IMG/VR virus record: IMGVR_UViG_3300021420_000022
Span: 1-64,000 of that record
Direction: 5' to 3' (one strand)
Source of the DNA: a virus
Length of the DNA: 64,000 bases
In this document: positions 18,916 through 63,171 of the stretch, piece by piece
Numbering within the stretch: position 1 is the stretch's first letter
How the letters are laid out: every line of letters starts with the position of its first letter
Made by a program: the position numbers and the translations under genes
Notes under the pieces: generated by a model
Seen by the model: only the letters and a program-made list of their open reading frames with translations
The model's database searches: none
What the model was told of the DNA's origin: nothing

Positions 18916-19434
18916 CTAATACCTCTTCAAATATGCGAGAGCCATCTCAAGCATTTTAATATCGTCCTTGAACATTCCTAGCGCGGCGTTGCACTTTCGA
19001 TGAACGAACGCTCGTAAATCCTTAGTCTTGTGATTGTGGTCTAGAACCGGATCAAGAGCGTCGTGGCCCTTAACGACTTTATTCATCGGCTGAAAACATA
19101 GGCCGCAAAGATCGCCTTGCGTAGTCCTGCGCTCTTCGTACCCCTCAACAGAGAGCCCGAACTGATTTTTAATTTTTCGCGCTCGAACGTTTTTTCGAAT
19201 CTGGTCGCCGCGCCTCTCATAATCTTGCTGATAGGTTTCTTTATACTTATCTGTTTCGTGATATCTTTGTTGAGCTTCAGCATGCTTACCAGATCGACGG
19301 TATTCCTCTTGGCCTCCATACTCATGATCCCGCCTATACGCAGTCCAGCAGGAGTTGCACAACTTCATACCGCGTTTCTTACTCTTGGAGAATTCAGAAG
19401 GCTCTCCTTCGAACTCACATTTCAAGCATTTCAT
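18916..19434 (-). CDS. Endonuclease VII-like HNH nuclease, 172 aa
   Basis: The N-terminus has two Cys pairs (MKCLKC, LCNSC), then a basic Tyr-rich linker of short repeats (YRRDHEYGG, RYHETDKY) typical of free-standing phage HNH enzymes. The C-terminal Endo VII core is LCGLCF ... LDHNHKTKDLRAF ... KCNAALGMFKDD, with DH, the second H, and N of the active site present. The usual RGLLCxxCN is RAFVHRKCN, so one zinc Cys is His. Could resolve branched DNA or be a homing nuclease. Confidence 0.85.
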   Translation of the reverse strand: MKCLKCEFEGEPSEFSKSKKRGMKLCNSCWTAYRRDHEYGGQEEYRRSGKHAEAQQRYHETDKYKETYQQDYERRGDQIRKNVRARKIKNQFGLSVEGYEERRTTQGDLCGLCFQPMNKVVKGHDALDPVLDHNHKTKDLRAFVHRKCNAALGMFKDDIKMLEMALAYLKRY

Positions 19435-22916: not shown

Positions 22917-23366
22917 TTAAGCTTTAGGACCGGGATCACCTTTCGGACCTTGAGCGCCGTCCTTGCCATCTTTACCGGGCGCGCCGTCTTTTCCGTCGTG
23001 ACCATCTTTACCGGGGTTGCCATCCTTCCCGTCTTTGCCGTCTCGACCATCGTGACCGTTGACGCCGTCGTGGCCGTCTTTACCGTCATGGCCTGACGCG
23101 CCATCGTGGCCATCTTTACCGGAAAGGCCGTCATGGCCGTCGAGGCCGTGCAAGCCGTCTTTTCCGTTTACGCCGTCTCGACCGTCCTTGCCGGGCATAC
23201 CGTCTTTCCCGGCTTTACCAGCGAGTCCCGCCGCGCCAGCCGGGCCTACCACAGTTTTACCTGCGGGACCGACCGGGCCTTGCGGGCCGGGCGTACCGTG
23301 TCTCAGAAATTGCAACACAAGAGACAAAGCGGCAACTCCTAGTGCAATGTAAGTCAAATCAATCAT
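22917..23366 (-). CDS. collagen-like (G-X-Y) repeat protein with N-terminal TM, 149 aa
   Basis: Residues 1-22 (MIDLTYIALGVAALSLVLQF) are a membrane segment. From residue 25 to the end the sequence is almost unbroken G-x-y triplets, many GKD, GHD and GPx, with one short break (TVVGPAGAAG). Triple-helix formation is expected, with Lys-Asp pairs stabilising it. Known phage collagen-like proteins are fibres; the TM is unusual and suggests a membrane-attached stalk or a lysis-module product. Placed next to a holin-like gene. SD GGAGGAACG. Confidence 0.8.
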   Translation of the reverse strand: MIDLTYIALGVAALSLVLQFLRHGTPGPQGPVGPAGKTVVGPAGAAGLAGKAGKDGMPGKDGRDGVNGKDGLHGLDGHDGLSGKDGHDGASGHDGKDGHDGVNGHDGRDGKDGKDGNPGKDGHDGKDGAPGKDGKDGAQGPKGDPGPKA

Positions 23367-31600: not shown

Positions 31601-33247
31601 TCAATCTATAATGCCAAATGATCCTTGCGCTGCAGACCAATCCGAATTGAACGCGTCGAAACCGTCACTCGGGTCCGCTGCTATTTTCTGGCGTTCGAGA
31701 ATCTGATCGGCAAGAGTTACCGCTTCCTGCTGACGGACCATCTCAAAAATCGGATTTACTTTCGGCTTTATCGGTTGCGCGATCATCGTGCCGATCATAT
31801 GCGTTGCGAACAGCGCGATAGTGTCGATGTAATCGTCGTGCTTGTGCTTGCCGCCAGGGAATATTTCAAACTGCGCCGCAATCTTGTCCCAAGCTGTGAC
31901 CGTATCGAAAAACCGAAGACGCCGACCACTCATCAAACCTTGAAGGCTGCCGATGCGCGTGTACTTCGCGTCCTTCCGAACATCGAGCTTCAAGAATTCG
32001 AGCGGGAGAAAAACTTTCTTTTCAGAAGCCACAAGCCGAAGATAATCCATAAAAAAGATAGCACTACTAGATTTCTCAAAGTAGATTGTAACCGGCCTGT
32101 ATTCGAGTGCCGCAAGGATTATCTGCTCGGCGAGCAACGACGAGGGCCACTGTCCGCCGCGAGCCTCCACAACATACTGTGTCATCTGTAGATCGTGCGC
32201 TCCGATTATTATACAAGAATCGTCTGCCGTGTCGGAGTTGGTGCTAGCGAGATCAACAAAGAAAACTTTCGGACTCAACTTCAAAACGTCGGCCTTCTTA
32301 ACTCGGCACGACTCCAGCAAAGCCTTGGTAAACTTCTGACCGCCCTTCTGCATGGGCTGGTTCAGATACTGACTGGCGAACATCTCGGGATCGCTATCCC
32401 GCATGAAATCCAGTTGTGCTTTCGTGAACCCAATCAACTTCTTATCGACTACTGATCCATCTTCCAGTATCGTAGTACGGTTGACTTCTTGCTGCGGAAA
32501 TAACGGCGTCAGTTGCTCTGCGTCCGCCCAGCAAGTCCGAAAGCTTACGCGCCACTCGCCCTTGATGTTGGCGCGCATGATGTTCTCGTAAACATCGCCG
32601 AAAGCATAGCGCGTACCCGTCATGATCGCGTAGAACGGCGCGTCCATCAAAGGCATGCACGCGAAGAAGTCTTGCTGAACCCGAGCCAGCTTAATCTTCG
32701 ACCGATAATTCTGGTCGTTTACCAAGTCATCGAAGAAGCCAATGTCATAGTGCGTACCAGTCTTGATCGAATTCGGCGACGCGACCGTAACTGTAGCTTG
32801 CGCTAAACCCATGTTCCGGCGAGCCGGGACTGTGAACGACATCGAGTTCCCGAGGTCGCCTTCGGTACAAAACTCAGGGAAGAAGTCCGCTAAATGTGAA
32901 TTCGGATTCGTGCCCGTAAAGTGCGCCCGAATTTCATTCAGCCACGCCTTCGTAATCGCGATGCTACCACGCATGATCAAAATACGGATGTCGGGGAAGT
33001 TCAGAATCGCCTGAATGATGTCGACGACAACAGCCGTAGTCTTGTAGTGACCACGAGGCCACAAGATCAGGACCTTAGCTATGTCCGATTGCTTTGCCCA
33101 CGCCTTGTGGTCGTCGTACTGGAAGAACTGACTCCACAACGGCGAGTGTACCGCAGGAACGAAGTCATAGCCCAGAACTTCGGCCAGCTTCTGCTTGTCC
33201 TTCTTCAATTCCCTGCGCATTCTTTCTATTTCTGATTGTAATGCCAC
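31601..33247 (-). CDS. terminase large subunit, 548 aa
   Basis: ATPase and nuclease motor that packages DNA through the portal. The N-terminal ATPase has LILWPRGHYKTT (deviant Walker A), IGFFDDLVND (Walker B), then TGTRYAFGDVY (coupling motif). The C-terminal RNase H-like nuclease has FFVDLASTNSDTADDSC and later DDYIDTIALFA with catalytic Asp. GTG start at 33247; a downstream ATG (residue 10) is an alternative. The small subunit is not identified. Confidence 0.9.
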   Translation of the reverse strand: MALQSEIERMRRELKKDKQKLAEVLGYDFVPAVHSPLWSQFFQYDDHKAWAKQSDIAKVLILWPRGHYKTTAVVVDIIQAILNFPDIRILIMRGSIAITKAWLNEIRAHFTGTNPNSHLADFFPEFCTEGDLGNSMSFTVPARRNMGLAQATVTVASPNSIKTGTHYDIGFFDDLVNDQNYRSKIKLARVQQDFFACMPLMDAPFYAIMTGTRYAFGDVYENIMRANIKGEWRVSFRTCWADAEQLTPLFPQQEVNRTTILEDGSVVDKKLIGFTKAQLDFMRDSDPEMFASQYLNQPMQKGGQKFTKALLESCRVKKADVLKLSPKVFFVDLASTNSDTADDSCIIIGAHDLQMTQYVVEARGGQWPSSLLAEQIILAALEYRPVTIYFEKSSSAIFFMDYLRLVASEKKVFLPLEFLKLDVRKDAKYTRIGSLQGLMSGRRLRFFDTVTAWDKIAAQFEIFPGGKHKHDDYIDTIALFATHMIGTMIAQPIKPKVNPIFEMVRQQEAVTLADQILERQKIAADPSDGFDAFNSDWSAAQGSFGIID

Positions 33248-58711: not shown

Positions 58712-58857
58712 CACGTCCACTGTTTGAAATTTGGCAGGACGGCGAGAACTGGCACGCACAAATGAAGAACTATGTCGCAACATTCGGATCGAAAGGCATG
58801 GCGGAGCGTTACGTCGCCGCCATAAAGAAAATGGCAGAACAGAATAAAAAAGCTTGA
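58708..58857 (+). CDS. small early protein, 49 aa
   Basis: Begins MTRPLFEIWQDGENWHAQMK, then a helix AERYVAAIKKMAEQNKKA. Its TGA stop (58855-58857) lies inside the -35 box of the next promoter. No family recognised. Confidence 0.5.
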   Translation: MTRPLFEIWQDGENWHAQMKNYVATFGSKGMAERYVAAIKKMAEQNKKA

Positions 58858-58882
58858 CAAACTTTTCGGATTCTGATACAGA
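58854..58882 (+). promoter_or_regulatory. promoter 5, drives the structured RNA
   Basis: TTGACA 58854-58859 overlapping the previous stop codon, a 17-bp spacer, TACAGA 58877-58882. Predicted start near 58889, which is the first base of a stem. Unlike promoters 1-4, it is not followed by an SD-ATG leader. Confidence 0.7.
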
Positions 58883-58888
58883 ATCCGG

Positions 58889-59266
58889 TCTCGGGGTCGC
58901 CGCGACCTAATAGGTCGACCGTTTAATCCGAGAAAACCAAGACGCGGCCACGGCGGAGAGCGGTAAGTCGGCAACCAGCGAAAACAATCAGCTGCTCCCG
59001 ACACCGTGGATCAAAGCGAAGGGCCGCGCAGAACCGGCGATGAAACCTTAACTGGGGTTAAAAGTCCCTCAGACGTTGCTAGAGGTACCCCGCTTACGTG
59101 GCGGAATGGCGCAACGTTGGATGCAGGTTAGAACCCTGCCTTCGCCTTATTTTTGGCAGTCATGCACTTGCTACGCGAACAGCACCCACGTAAGTCCGAG
59201 CGCGGTGGGGCGCGTAGCGGGCCAAAGGACTAGGGTCTGATCAACCCTTGGTGCGTGATTGCCAAA
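58889..59266 (+). ncRNA. large structured non-coding RNA, about 380 nt
   Basis: No convincing gene, but dense complementarity. TCTCGG (58889) pairs with CCGAGA (58928). Inside, CGACC (58903-58907) can pair either GGTCG (58895) or AGGTCG (58912), a switch-like choice. CGCGGCC (58943) pairs GGCCGCG (59022), with CCACGG/CCGTGG and GTCGG/CCGAC nested. GGGG (59054)/CCCC (59088) encloses CCTC/GAGG. GCAGG-TTAGAAC-CCTGC (59123-59139) is tRNA T-arm-like. A 16-bp helix (59152-59167 with 59251-59266, two G-T pairs) closes GCTACGCG/CGCGTAGC and CCAAAGG/CCCTTGG hairpins. The HNH gene follows at once. Confidence 0.7.
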
Positions 59267-59299
59267 CGATTTGGGCCTAAAAATTCATGGGGTAAACTG

Positions 59300-59767
59300 A
59301 TGGATCGTCGCGCATCGCATCTGAAACTTTATAATCTCACGGTTACTGAGTGGGACCTTATTGACGCCTTCCAGAACCATGTCTGCGCAATCTGTCATCG
59401 GCCTAACAAATCTGGCAAACGCCTCAGTACAGACCATTCTCACATCACCGGCATAATTCGCGGATTGCTGTGTCAACGTTGCAATCGAATTCTTGGAAAG
59501 ATCGAAGACCCTCGATTTTGGCGTGAAAATACGATAGCGTTGTTGCGCGCCGCCGCTGACTTTCTGGAGCACTTCCCGGCAGTTCTGGCTCTGGGCCGAG
59601 AAATTTTTACTTACCCCGGTAGGTTGGGGACTAAAACCCACCGAGCTTGGCTGCGAAAGAAAATTCGCGTTGTAACTCCGGCATCTATTAGGACGGAGAG
59701 GGATGGAAGAAACCTTAAAAGCACTACTTCCCACAGGCGGTCTGCCTTACCCGGGCGAAGACTTTAA
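59300..59767 (+). CDS. Endonuclease VII-like HNH nuclease, about 155 aa
   Basis: Core: VCAICHRPNKSGKRLSTDHSH, then GIIRGLLCQRCNRILGKIEDPRFW, with the DH-x-H, two C-x2-C pairs and N of the Endo VII family intact. Start ATG 59300 is modest; a GTG at 59255 lies within the RNA helix. The last 70 residues (after FLEHF) look like untranslated-style sequence read through the region of the 32-bp repeat, and the frame overlaps the next gene by 65 bp. Could be a homing nuclease of the RNA element. Confidence 0.75.
   Translation: MDRRASHLKLYNLTVTEWDLIDAFQNHVCAICHRPNKSGKRLSTDHSHITGIIRGLLCQRCNRILGKIEDPRFWRENTIALLRAAADFLEHFPAVLALGREIFTYPGRLGTKTHRAWLRKKIRVVTPASIRTERDGRNLKSTTSHRRSALPGRRL
59662..59693 (+). 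repeat. 32-bp exact repeat, copy 2 (inverted copy at 51745-51776)
   Basis: Reads AATTCGCGTTGTAACTCC and on to CTATTAGGA, directly before GACGGAGAGGG and the ATG of gene 59703-59873. It is the reverse complement of the control-region copy. In both places an SD-like string follows when read in this direction. Confidence 0.85.
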
Positions 59768-60555: not shown

Positions 60556-62192
60556 TGGGGGCTCCTATGAGCGCTCGAACGAATGAGGAGCGAGTCACTC
60601 CTGAAGTGATTCTCGCTACCTATGAGAAGAACGCCGGAAACGTGCGTGCGACGGCGAAAGAACTAGGGATAGGTCGGTGGACAGTGTTGAGAAACGTTCG
60701 CAAACTCGGTCAGGGCAAGAAGCCAATCGCAGCGGGTTCGATCACTGGGGTCGAAGCTAAACCTGCCAAGCTCCCAAAGAACGGACAGATCAAGCGATAT
60801 ATTCTCACCTCTGCACAAAACAATACTTACGTCTATGATAAAGTCTGGGATAACATTCTCGCGCTTGCAAAGTTTTATGATGCCGAGATTCTCGTCGGCA
60901 CTTACTCCTACAACCAAAACGCGTTCGGCGAGCTCGCCGTCAAGCGCGGTAAAGCGAAAAAGCAAGAAAAAGAACTCTGGTACGACCCGAAGTTAAAGGA
61001 TTATTTTTGTGATCACCGCAAACAACTGGCGAACGGTCTCGTATGGTGTGGGGAGTATAACGCGCTGCCCACAGCAGTCAACCCCCTCGCCGGTCTCGAA
61101 TCGTACAGCGGACGCCAGTCAGCCATCTTTCCGCATGCCAAGCTGGCGATGCGGTCTATCGCTACGATGCAAGACGCCGGAACGAAGCTGAACTACACCA
61201 CAGGCACTGTGACCGAGAAGAACTATATTCAGAAACGCGCCGGAACCATTGCAGAGTTTCACCACGTGTACGGCGGTCTCCTAGTCGAAGTCGATCACGA
61301 GGGTCACTGGTGGGTGCGGCAGTTGAACGCTGACACGGACACCGCCGACATTCAGGATTTGGACGTACTTGTTCACGACGGCGTCGTTACGACCGGCAAT
61401 CGAGTCGAAGCCATCACGTGGGGCGACATTCACGCGACGATTATCGATGAGAAGGTTGTGGACGCGTCGCTCAGTATGTTGGACACTCTCAAGCCAAAGT
61501 ATCAGTTCTTCCACGACGTTCTTGAGGGCTCCTCGATCAATCACCACGTCAAAGACAATCCGCACTTCAAATTCTATAACTGGCTTCGAGGTCTCCATCG
61601 TGTCGAGGAAGAACTGAAGCGCACGGCAGCGGTGCTCGACCGTTACGCCCGTCCGAATACGAAAGCCGTAGCCGTCGATTCGAACCATGACGACCCGTGG
61701 ATTCAGCGCTGGCTTCGTGATCATGATTTCAGGAAGGACCCAGCGAACGCGGAGTTATATCTTGAGGCGCAGCGGTACATGTACCGGCAGCTTCGTGAAG
61801 GAAAAAATTCTGGAAAGCTGCCTCGCGATATCAACATGGCGGCGTGGGCCTTGCAACATTTCGGCGGGCTCAAGTCTGATATTCAGTTTCTCATCGCCGA
61901 TCAGAGCTTCTTTATTTGCGGTGACAAGATCGAATGTGGTATGCACGGGCACCTCGGGCCGAACGGACGTTATGGTTCGCCTGAGAATTTGTCGAAGATG
62001 GGACGCCGGTCGAATACCGCGCACACTCACTACGCTGGAATCTACGACGGCCTGTATGTGGCCGGAACGTCGACAAAGTTTCGCTGGGACTACAATCGAG
62101 GGCCGTCGAACTGGACACACAGTCACATAGTAACCTACCCGAACGGTAAGCGAGCGATTGTCACAATTTATGCAGATAAGTGGAGGGCTTAA
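60555..62192 (+). CDS. T5 A1-like DNA-transfer protein with N-terminal HTH, 545 aa
   Basis: Start taken at 60555 (TGATG overlap with the previous stop); ATG 60567 is an alternative. Residues about 10-50 form a helix-turn-helix (RATAKELGIGRWTVLRNVRKLG). The rest carries the pattern of T5 A1/phage DNA-transfer proteins: ILVGTYSYNQNAFG, TGTVTEKNYIQKRAG, ITWGDIHATIIDEKV, YQFFHDVLEGSSINHHVKDNPH and MHGHLGPNGRYGS, with many D/H residues like a metallophosphoesterase. In T5, A1 stops transfer and host DNA is degraded; a similar role here is inference. Confidence 0.6.
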   Translation: MGAPMSARTNEERVTPEVILATYEKNAGNVRATAKELGIGRWTVLRNVRKLGQGKKPIAAGSITGVEAKPAKLPKNGQIKRYILTSAQNNTYVYDKVWDNILALAKFYDAEILVGTYSYNQNAFGELAVKRGKAKKQEKELWYDPKLKDYFCDHRKQLANGLVWCGEYNALPTAVNPLAGLESYSGRQSAIFPHAKLAMRSIATMQDAGTKLNYTTGTVTEKNYIQKRAGTIAEFHHVYGGLLVEVDHEGHWWVRQLNADTDTADIQDLDVLVHDGVVTTGNRVEAITWGDIHATIIDEKVVDASLSMLDTLKPKYQFFHDVLEGSSINHHVKDNPHFKFYNWLRGLHRVEEELKRTAAVLDRYARPNTKAVAVDSNHDDPWIQRWLRDHDFRKDPANAELYLEAQRYMYRQLREGKNSGKLPRDINMAAWALQHFGGLKSDIQFLIADQSFFICGDKIECGMHGHLGPNGRYGSPENLSKMGRRSNTAHTHYAGIYDGLYVAGTSTKFRWDYNRGPSNWTHSHIVTYPNGKRAIVTIYADKWRA

Positions 62193-62677
62193 TGTCTGAG
62201 GGAGCGCTGAACCCATATTCTGATATTATTGAGAAGCTACGTAACGTTGCGGCTGATGCGGACGGTGCTGACCTCCGGGCCTTGGCAGCACAGATCAGAA
62301 CTCAAGTGCCGGAGAGCAATAATCCGAAGGATCGTATTGGGCAAGCTAAGGTATCTCTCACAAAGATACCGGGTGTAGCGTTACTTCATGAAGCAAAAGC
62401 CATGATGAATGGCGCGAGTCGTTACGGAGCGTTCAATTGGAGGGATCACAGCGTACTTGCTTCAATCTACGTTGACGCTGCGCTTCGTCATTTGTACTCA
62501 TGGTTTGAAGGGGAAGAAGAAGCTCAGGACAGCGGAGTCCATCATCTCGGGCATTTGCGGGCGTGTACAGCAATTCTTCTTGACGCGCAGGCAACGGGAA
62601 ATCTAGTTGATGATCGCCCGAAAAAAGGAACTTTTATTTCGGTGCTATCGCAGTTGAATGAGCAGGTTAAGAAATGA
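62192..62677 (+). CDS. DUF5664 / dATP-dGTP diphosphohydrolase-N-like protein, 161 aa
   Basis: Start 62192 in a TAATG overlap. Residues 45-145 carry the family pattern: NPKDRIGQAKVSLTKIPGVALLHEAKAMMNGASRYGAFNWRDHSV, then ASIYVDAALRHLYSWFEGEEEAQDSGVHHLGHLRACTAILLDAQATGNLVDDRP. Related domains are annotated as MazZ-like dATP/dGTP hydrolases and many phages carry them without modified DNA. A purine-nucleotide role is inferred. Confidence 0.75.
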   Translation: MSEGALNPYSDIIEKLRNVAADADGADLRALAAQIRTQVPESNNPKDRIGQAKVSLTKIPGVALLHEAKAMMNGASRYGAFNWRDHSVLASIYVDAALRHLYSWFEGEEEAQDSGVHHLGHLRACTAILLDAQATGNLVDDRPKKGTFISVLSQLNEQVKK

Positions 62678-63171
62678 ATCGTTTGCGTCGCTGTCGGGAA
62701 TGCAAGAAGAGGAAATCTCTGCGAAGCTTTAGTCTTGATCGTGGGAAGCCGAGACGAATTTGTAAAAAGTGTGCGTCTGACAAACAATCCGAGCGATACG
62801 CTGGTCAGGGCGCTGCTGGGCGAAAAAGAGTTTTGAAAAATTGGAACGCATTTTTTCGGAGAGACCCAGCTCGTGCGCGATTTAATCTTTCAAAGTCGGC
62901 GGCAAAGCAATCTGGTCATCAGTGGCAGTTGACTCTTGAGCAGTACCGTCGTTTGAACGCTCTTCCTTGCTATTATTGCGGCGGTGTTTTACCGGAGAAG
63001 GGCCGAGGTCTTGATCGGAAGAACAATGCCGAAGGTTATACTTTGAGAAATGTTTTGCCATGCTGTACGGTTTGCAACACCCTTCGTTCGGATAACTTTA
63101 CAGTTGAAGAAACTAAAGTAGCAGTTGACGCTATTCAACAACTGAGGAAACAGAAAGGATTATCAAAGTGA
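62674..63171 (+). CDS. HNH endonuclease, 165 aa
   Basis: N-terminal zinc ribbon (CRECKKRKSLRSFS ... RICKKCASDK). C-terminal HNH variant: LPCYYCGGVLPEKGRGLDRKNN, then AEGYTLRNVLPCCTVCNTLRSDNFTVEE, a family where HNH is replaced by D-R-x-N-N but the metal-binding Cys are kept. Likely a nicking or homing nuclease. ATGA overlap on both sides. Confidence 0.75.
   Translation: MNRLRRCRECKKRKSLRSFSLDRGKPRRICKKCASDKQSERYAGQGAAGRKRVLKNWNAFFRRDPARARFNLSKSAAKQSGHQWQLTLEQYRRLNALPCYYCGGVLPEKGRGLDRKNNAEGYTLRNVLPCCTVCNTLRSDNFTVEETKVAVDAIQQLRKQKGLSK

Follow-up and report, generated by a model that had tools for sequence, protein, structure and literature searches.

The region at positions 58854–59300 of a soil phage genome is composed of three parts, modules A, B and C, and is not a one-piece RNA. 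As the comparison of homologues shows, modules A and B keep their secondary structures through compensatory changes. Judged from its sequence, B also has the features by which enzymes acting on tRNA recognize their substrates: a 7-bp acceptor and, stacked on it, a T-arm with a standard loop, with NCCA in one homologue. The reading that we tentatively favor, at slightly under even confidence, is that of a promoter-driven phage non-coding RNA in which A is followed by a tRNA mimic, B, and then by a phage-specific module C, with B serving as a non-decoding decoy or scaffold.

Genomic setting

The window, meaning the whole 64,000-nt stretch of DNA that was analyzed, comprises positions 1–64000 of the 92,392-bp virus record IMGVR_UViG_3300021420_000022. 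The source of the phage and of its relatives is soil. The phage is tailed, with a terminase large subunit encoded at 31604–33247, and a T5 A1-like DNA transfer protein is encoded at 60561–62192. Among the phage records listed for the terminase, the lowest E-value belonged to Tunturiibacter phage Tunturi_3 (22% identity), which hints at an acidobacterial host without establishing it. The window also encodes a collagen-like Gly-X-Y repeat protein at 22917–23366 (−).

Four relatives (contigs L003, L004, L005 and L006) were found by a search with the endonuclease VII protein, and a further contig, L012, by a scan of viral contigs for the inner core of module B. The DNA transfer proteins of the window and L004 are 85% identical; at the DNA level the two are 82.5% identical over 58992–59147, with a weaker, gapped similarity 5' of that to 58880. 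The phage of L012 is a distant relative whose proteins in common with the window's phage are 29–52% identical. When similar DNA was sought in 50,697 phage records, the window had no match, and pieces of L004, L012 and L006 gave only tRNA or chance matches.

Promoter and modular organization

The putative promoter (58854..58882, +) was read from the sequence as TTGACA (58854–58859), a 17-nt spacer and an extended −10 element, TG-A-TACAGA (58874–58882). The first-pass annotation had described a 17-bp-spaced sigma70-like promoter, and this description stands in part: the TTGACA is perfect and such a box, with 16–17-nt spacing, is kept before the homologous site in L004, L003 and L012; however, the −10 element is weak and the promoter falls below the threshold of a standard promoter scan. 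The L012 promoter (TTGACA-16-TAGGAT) scores 10/12. The accompanying view that no convincing gene follows is borne out, as 58880–59147 contains no conserved gene and stop codons are present in all plus-strand frames of the window, L004, L005 and L006. A protein-coding origin was rejected since these four sequences have no open frame in common. An apparent peptide frame common to L003 and the window was also discarded, being stopped in L004.

The evidence from the window alone is moderate. The segment 58874–59300 folds with an energy of −162.3 kcal/mol compared with −147.9 kcal/mol for shuffles (z = −2.7). A 16-bp helix, an inner 8-bp stem and a T-arm-like hairpin had been picked out as the stems of interest; all three are present in the minimum-energy fold, but the conserved structure lies toward the 5' side. 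Homologues with covariation, which the annotation had proposed to look for, were found for A in three other contigs and for B in two. The sample therefore consists of three sequences for B and four for A, two of the latter being near-identical.

Both modules are present in the window and L004, while A is found alone in L005 and L006 and B alone in the distantly related L012. The initial picture of a single RNA thus gives way to one of separate modules and, since A and B are found apart, each probably has its own function. Models of B (R1) and A (R2) were used to scan phage records. One strong B was identified by R1 in each of G000 (the window's phage), G001 and G003, and a single A per record by R2 in G000, G003, G004 and G005. 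No copy of either was found in Tunturiibacter phages 2–5 or in three other phages, in which the weak R1 matches are tRNAs and a tmRNA end.

Module C (59151..59267, +) is a long hairpin composed of the 16-bp helix and the inner 8-bp stem, and is present only in the window's phage. It is individually very stable (z = −4.4) and the 16-bp helix had been considered central. A stretch of approximately 118 nt containing this helix is, however, missing from L004, the nearest relative and the only one with both A and B; thus, the helix is not the conserved part. An unrelated long hairpin is located at the site of module C in L012.

Module A

Module A (58880..59035, +) may be considered in terms of a 5' hairpin (58895–58925) and a long rod (58943..59028, +). 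Its homologues, which provide the covariation described below, are located at L004:2664–2840, L005:1858–2048 and L006:1764–1912. The motifs AGAGYGG-N-AA-NNN-RGCAACCAGC, GACCGU, CUGCU and GC-R-AAGG-R-CCG are common to all four copies, and a sequence pattern for the module is CTGCT, seven N and CCNTNNNTCNANGCNAAGG. The rod, drawn from separate energy folds and a consensus, has a CGCGGCC/GGCCGCG base, inner helices pairing 58967–58971 with 58998–59002 and 58976–58979 with 58991–58994, and a variable tip. Its base reads CGGCC/GGCCG in the window and L004; L005 and L006 have CGGUU/GACCG instead.

Because L005 and L006 are near-identical in A, the four copies amount to three lineages. Of the 33 pairs, 10 have changed on both sides with pairing retained, a result equalled by 1 of 500 shuffles, and the helix at 58967–58971 / 58998–59002 accounts for four such pairs out of five. 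When each sequence was folded separately by energy only, the rod was recovered for the window, L004 and L005 but not for L006; the folding of A in L005 and L006 was no better than that of shuffles. Module A appears to be a rod-like structured domain of a new kind, with a secondary structure kept by compensatory changes.

Module B

Module B (59036..59147, +) is a predicted tRNA-like domain of 112 nt with homologues at L004:2841–2957 and L012:10067–10176. The acceptor is formed by 59036–59042 with 59140–59146, and the T-arm (59123..59139, +), GCAGG-UUAGAAC-CCUGC, has a 5-bp stem and a 7-nt loop and sits directly on the acceptor strand. The hairpin first described as tRNA T-arm-like was thus correctly recognized, and it forms half of a complete tRNA-like domain, the other acceptor strand being the one at 59036–59042. 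In the position of the D-arm is a hairpin (59052..59072, +) that varies with compensation. It is followed by a core arm (59073..59117, +) in which a CGUUGC/GYAACG helix surrounds UAGAGGUACCCCGC-N6-GGCGGAAUGGC. Among the three contigs, the core CGUUGCUAGAGGUACCCCGC-N6-GGCGGAAUGGCGYAACG varies outside the N6 at one stem position; it is nearly invariant even though the proteins in common with the phage of L012 are 29–52% identical.

The GGCGGAAUGGC of the core arm is also a tRNA-Leu D-arm sequence. A pattern match from a genome collection, L014, was rejected as a copy of B because it is an ordinary tRNA-Leu D-arm; GTGGCGGAATGGC is identical in the L014 tRNA-Leu, the window and L004. Pattern scans of viral contigs revealed no fourth copy of module B.

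In L004, the module ends with GCAGG-UUCGAAC-CCUGC-CAUCGCC-UCCA, representing the T-arm, the acceptor strand and NCCA, and the 5' acceptor strand GGCGAUG lies approximately 110 nt before the 3' strand. This is the one B homologue with an NCCA end. The L012 copy has the acceptor GAGGAUG/CAUCCUC and the T-arm CAAGG-UUCGAAU-CCUUG, so that the acceptors of L004 (GGCGATG/CATCGCC) and L012 (GAGGATG/CATCCTC) and their T-stems change in concert. Over 35 consensus pairs in the three sequences, 97% of cells are kept and seven pairs are doubly changed. This was matched by 0 of 500 shuffles, a control that leaves relatedness in, and slid partners gave 37–51%. The R1 scores were 115–128 bits for the three B copies and 12–25 bits for the next best matches, which were real tRNAs and a tmRNA end. 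Separate energy folds produced the structure for L004 and L012 and most of it for the window. Single-sequence folding was modestly better than that of shuffles (z = −1.7), and a T-arm-plus-acceptor pattern was found twice in the window against 1.4 expected in shuffles, which is not beyond chance. The case for a tRNA-like domain is made by conservation and covariation.

Of the features of a canonical tRNA, the 7-bp acceptor with a stacked 5-bp/7-nt T-arm is perfect in L004 and L012, and has six of seven acceptor pairs in the window. B lacks U8, a 4-bp D-arm and an anticodon loop with U33: position 8 is an A, the D-arm is replaced by a variable hairpin, and the anticodon position is taken by a 45-nt arm, with no U33 in L012. 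Neither ARAGORN nor Rfam RF00005 recognized B as a canonical tRNA, the L004 copy reaching 17.9 bits against a threshold of 29. The only ordinary tRNA that ARAGORN identified in the window's phage is a tRNA-Ile(GAT) outside the window (G000 73040–73114; L058:13040–13114), and its T-stem, GCAGG/CCUGC, is that of module B.

In the window copy of B, one acceptor pair is a T.T mismatch, the T-loop position expected to meet the D-loop is A in place of C, and there is no CCA; in L003, nearly all of A and B has been lost. These features would suit a decayed tRNA preceded by a chance intergenic remnant, A. Such an origin is highly improbable given the compensatory changes and the nearly invariant non-tRNA core across deep divergence, and given that the promoter is kept.

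In the window and L004, B follows A without a linker and begins exactly at the end of A. This arrangement would be expected of a processing device, in which an RNase P cut at the 5' edge of B sets the 3' end of A, and A is the part that works. A known example is mascRNA, an RNase P-cut element that sets the 3' end of MALAT1, and among sub-threshold Rfam matches it is to mascRNA that the L012 copy comes closest (24 bits, E = 0.01, threshold 42.5). That match, like the best sub-threshold match of L004 to tRNA, is due to the T-arm and acceptor. While a processing device is the runner-up among the explanations, it is unlikely: B of L012 has no module A in front and lies about 10 nt after the promoter, L005 and L006 have an A with no B, and an element that served processing alone could dispense with the nearly invariant inner core.

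The Endonuclease VII gene and its neighborhood

The Endonuclease VII (HNH) gene (59300..59767, +; Pfam PF02945, E = 1.5e-19; PHROG endonuclease VII) had been thought to belong with the RNA. This gene, whose product is a recombination endonuclease VII, is conserved in five phages, those of the window and L003–L006, with or without the RNA, and is therefore a fixed neighbor and not a partner. In L003, a similarly placed promoter remains with only 43 nt of RNA directly before the endonuclease gene, and B of L012 adjoins no HNH gene. The placement of A and B between the promoter and the Endonuclease VII gene in the window and L004 might also suggest a cis-regulatory leader of that gene, which we regard as quite improbable. 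L005 and L006 keep the gene with no such leader in front, their A being located about 1 kb further upstream before other genes. In addition, B of L012 precedes an unrelated gene, and in the window module C and approximately 30 nt intervene between B and the start codon.

Some further features of this neighborhood were observed. At L003:2775–3000, where the RNA would be expected, the promoter is accompanied by a possible small ORF (MKRIIAVRPPGGGCFRHRGSKQRAAQNLYERS) that spans the 43 nt left of module A. A NADAR-domain gene (PF08719) at L004:2212–2661 is immediately upstream of the RNA promoter; none is present there in the window or L003. The window has other HNH genes at 18916–19434 (−), Endonuclease VII-like by eye only, and at 62674–63171 (+), a PHROG endonuclease VII.

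Proposed function

The acceptor, T-arm and NCCA parts of a tRNA are read by RNase P, the CCA-adding enzyme, T-loop modifiers and EF-Tu. For B as a decoy or scaffold, transcription would begin from the promoter at 58854, RNase P would cut before 59036, and the 3' end of B would be trimmed and CCA-tailed. Once folded, B may act as a non-decoding decoy, scaffold or docking site for tRNA-handling proteins. The likeliest targets would be anticodon nucleases of the host or other defence enzymes that act on tRNA, since the anticodon position of B presents an enlarged conserved arm in place of a decoding loop. We know of no decoy of this shape shown so far. The decoy reading is favored because the remodeled part of B is the anticodon arm, because phage tRNAs are known to defeat tRNA-cutting defences (PMC10264068, PMC11555353), and because the tRNA-like part of YrlA has been proposed as a competitive inhibitor of an anticodon nuclease (PMC7790460).

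A broader interpretation is that two new phage RNA families are represented, one a tRNA mimic that has a conserved non-decoding core and neutralizes host tRNA-directed immunity, and the other an independent, fusible rod-like domain; this must be considered doubtful. Many bacteria have immunity that works by cutting tRNA, and phages are known to counter it by supplying extra tRNAs or by repairing tRNA. If the interpretation is true, a tRNA mimic that is conserved and does not decode would be a third kind of counter-measure, made of RNA only, and the few known phage RNAs would be joined by two structured families, neither of them in Rfam. RtcB RNA ligase was absent from all six phage records in which it was sought.

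Comparison with known RNA classes

No Rfam family was found at threshold in the window or in L002–L006, and a search at E up to 10 of the window and its relatives, including L012, returned nothing credible. Together with the compensatory changes among homologues, this agrees with the original proposal of a structured RNA outside the known classes. The exclusion of a group I intron was also upheld, as the Rfam group I model gave no hit even with E allowed to reach 10. HEARO, GOLLD, ROOL and OLE were rejected since their Rfam models had no match.

B might instead be a reduced or divergent member of a known tRNA-mimic family, either tmRNA or bacterial Y RNA, which is improbable. Like tmRNA (ssrA), B has an acceptor and T-arm, no canonical D-stem, and a helix replacing the anticodon arm; the acceptor, T-arm and GGAU variable loop resemble a tmRNA 3' end, to which R1 gives a weak score. 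Against this, B has no conserved tag frame and is 112 nt in length, and ARAGORN reports nothing at B, although it does identify a permuted tmRNA at another site in the window's phage; a tmRNA was thus rejected for B. The permuted tmRNA is in two pieces (G000 84971–about 85330; L059:5971–6330), outside the window, with the acceptor GGGCCUA/UAGGUCC, a GGUUUCGACGGG loop and CCA. The tag given by ARAGORN is probably wrong, and an in-frame tag ending ...NFGMEAAASMA-stop fits better. Tunturiibacter phage Tunturi_4 also has an apparent permuted tmRNA, unannotated, at L054:1061–1595 (−) (PP885687.1 near 43.4–44.0 kb), with the tag ANTVTSTIRN...YAVAA-stop-stop; it overlaps a CDS called an RF-1-domain release factor.

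The Y RNA idea was raised by a Ro (TROVE) gene in the phage of L012; the protein is absent in G000 and G003, records that are possibly incomplete. YrlA (RF02553) resembles B in being a non-coding RNA that contains a tRNA-like domain and measures about 110 nt. However, the tRNA mimic in YrlA is a circular permutation (PMC11472068) and YrlA has a Ro-binding end stem, whereas B keeps the tRNA order with acceptor ends. Neither YrlA nor tmRNA matched at E up to 10, and YrlA was rejected as RF02553 had no match at the three B copies. Moreover, no Ro gene was found in the possibly incomplete record of the window's phage, and the phage of L012 has its own Y-RNA-like stems beside its Ro gene. In this tRNA-rich phage, a 471-aa Ro/TROVE protein is encoded at L025:910–2325 (IMGVR_UViG_3300050821_003306), with the two Y-RNA-like stems directly upstream (L025 about 675–890), both with GGATGCCGTAG and GTTACTTC.

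GOLLD and ROOL are also phage-borne structured non-coding RNAs of unknown function near tRNAs, and GOLLD linkers can contain tRNAs (PMC12286853); they differ in being far larger and in having another structure. The mascRNA of MALAT1 (RF01684) is comparable as a tRNA-like element that lies immediately 3' of another RNA and as the weak match of L012, which is below the curated threshold; it is, however, eukaryotic and smaller (a 56-position model), and does not have the core of B. Finally, B has in common with the defence-evading phage tRNAs (PMC10264068, PMC11555353) that it is phage-encoded and tRNA-shaped. Those tRNAs decode and carry an anticodon, whereas B has no decoding loop.
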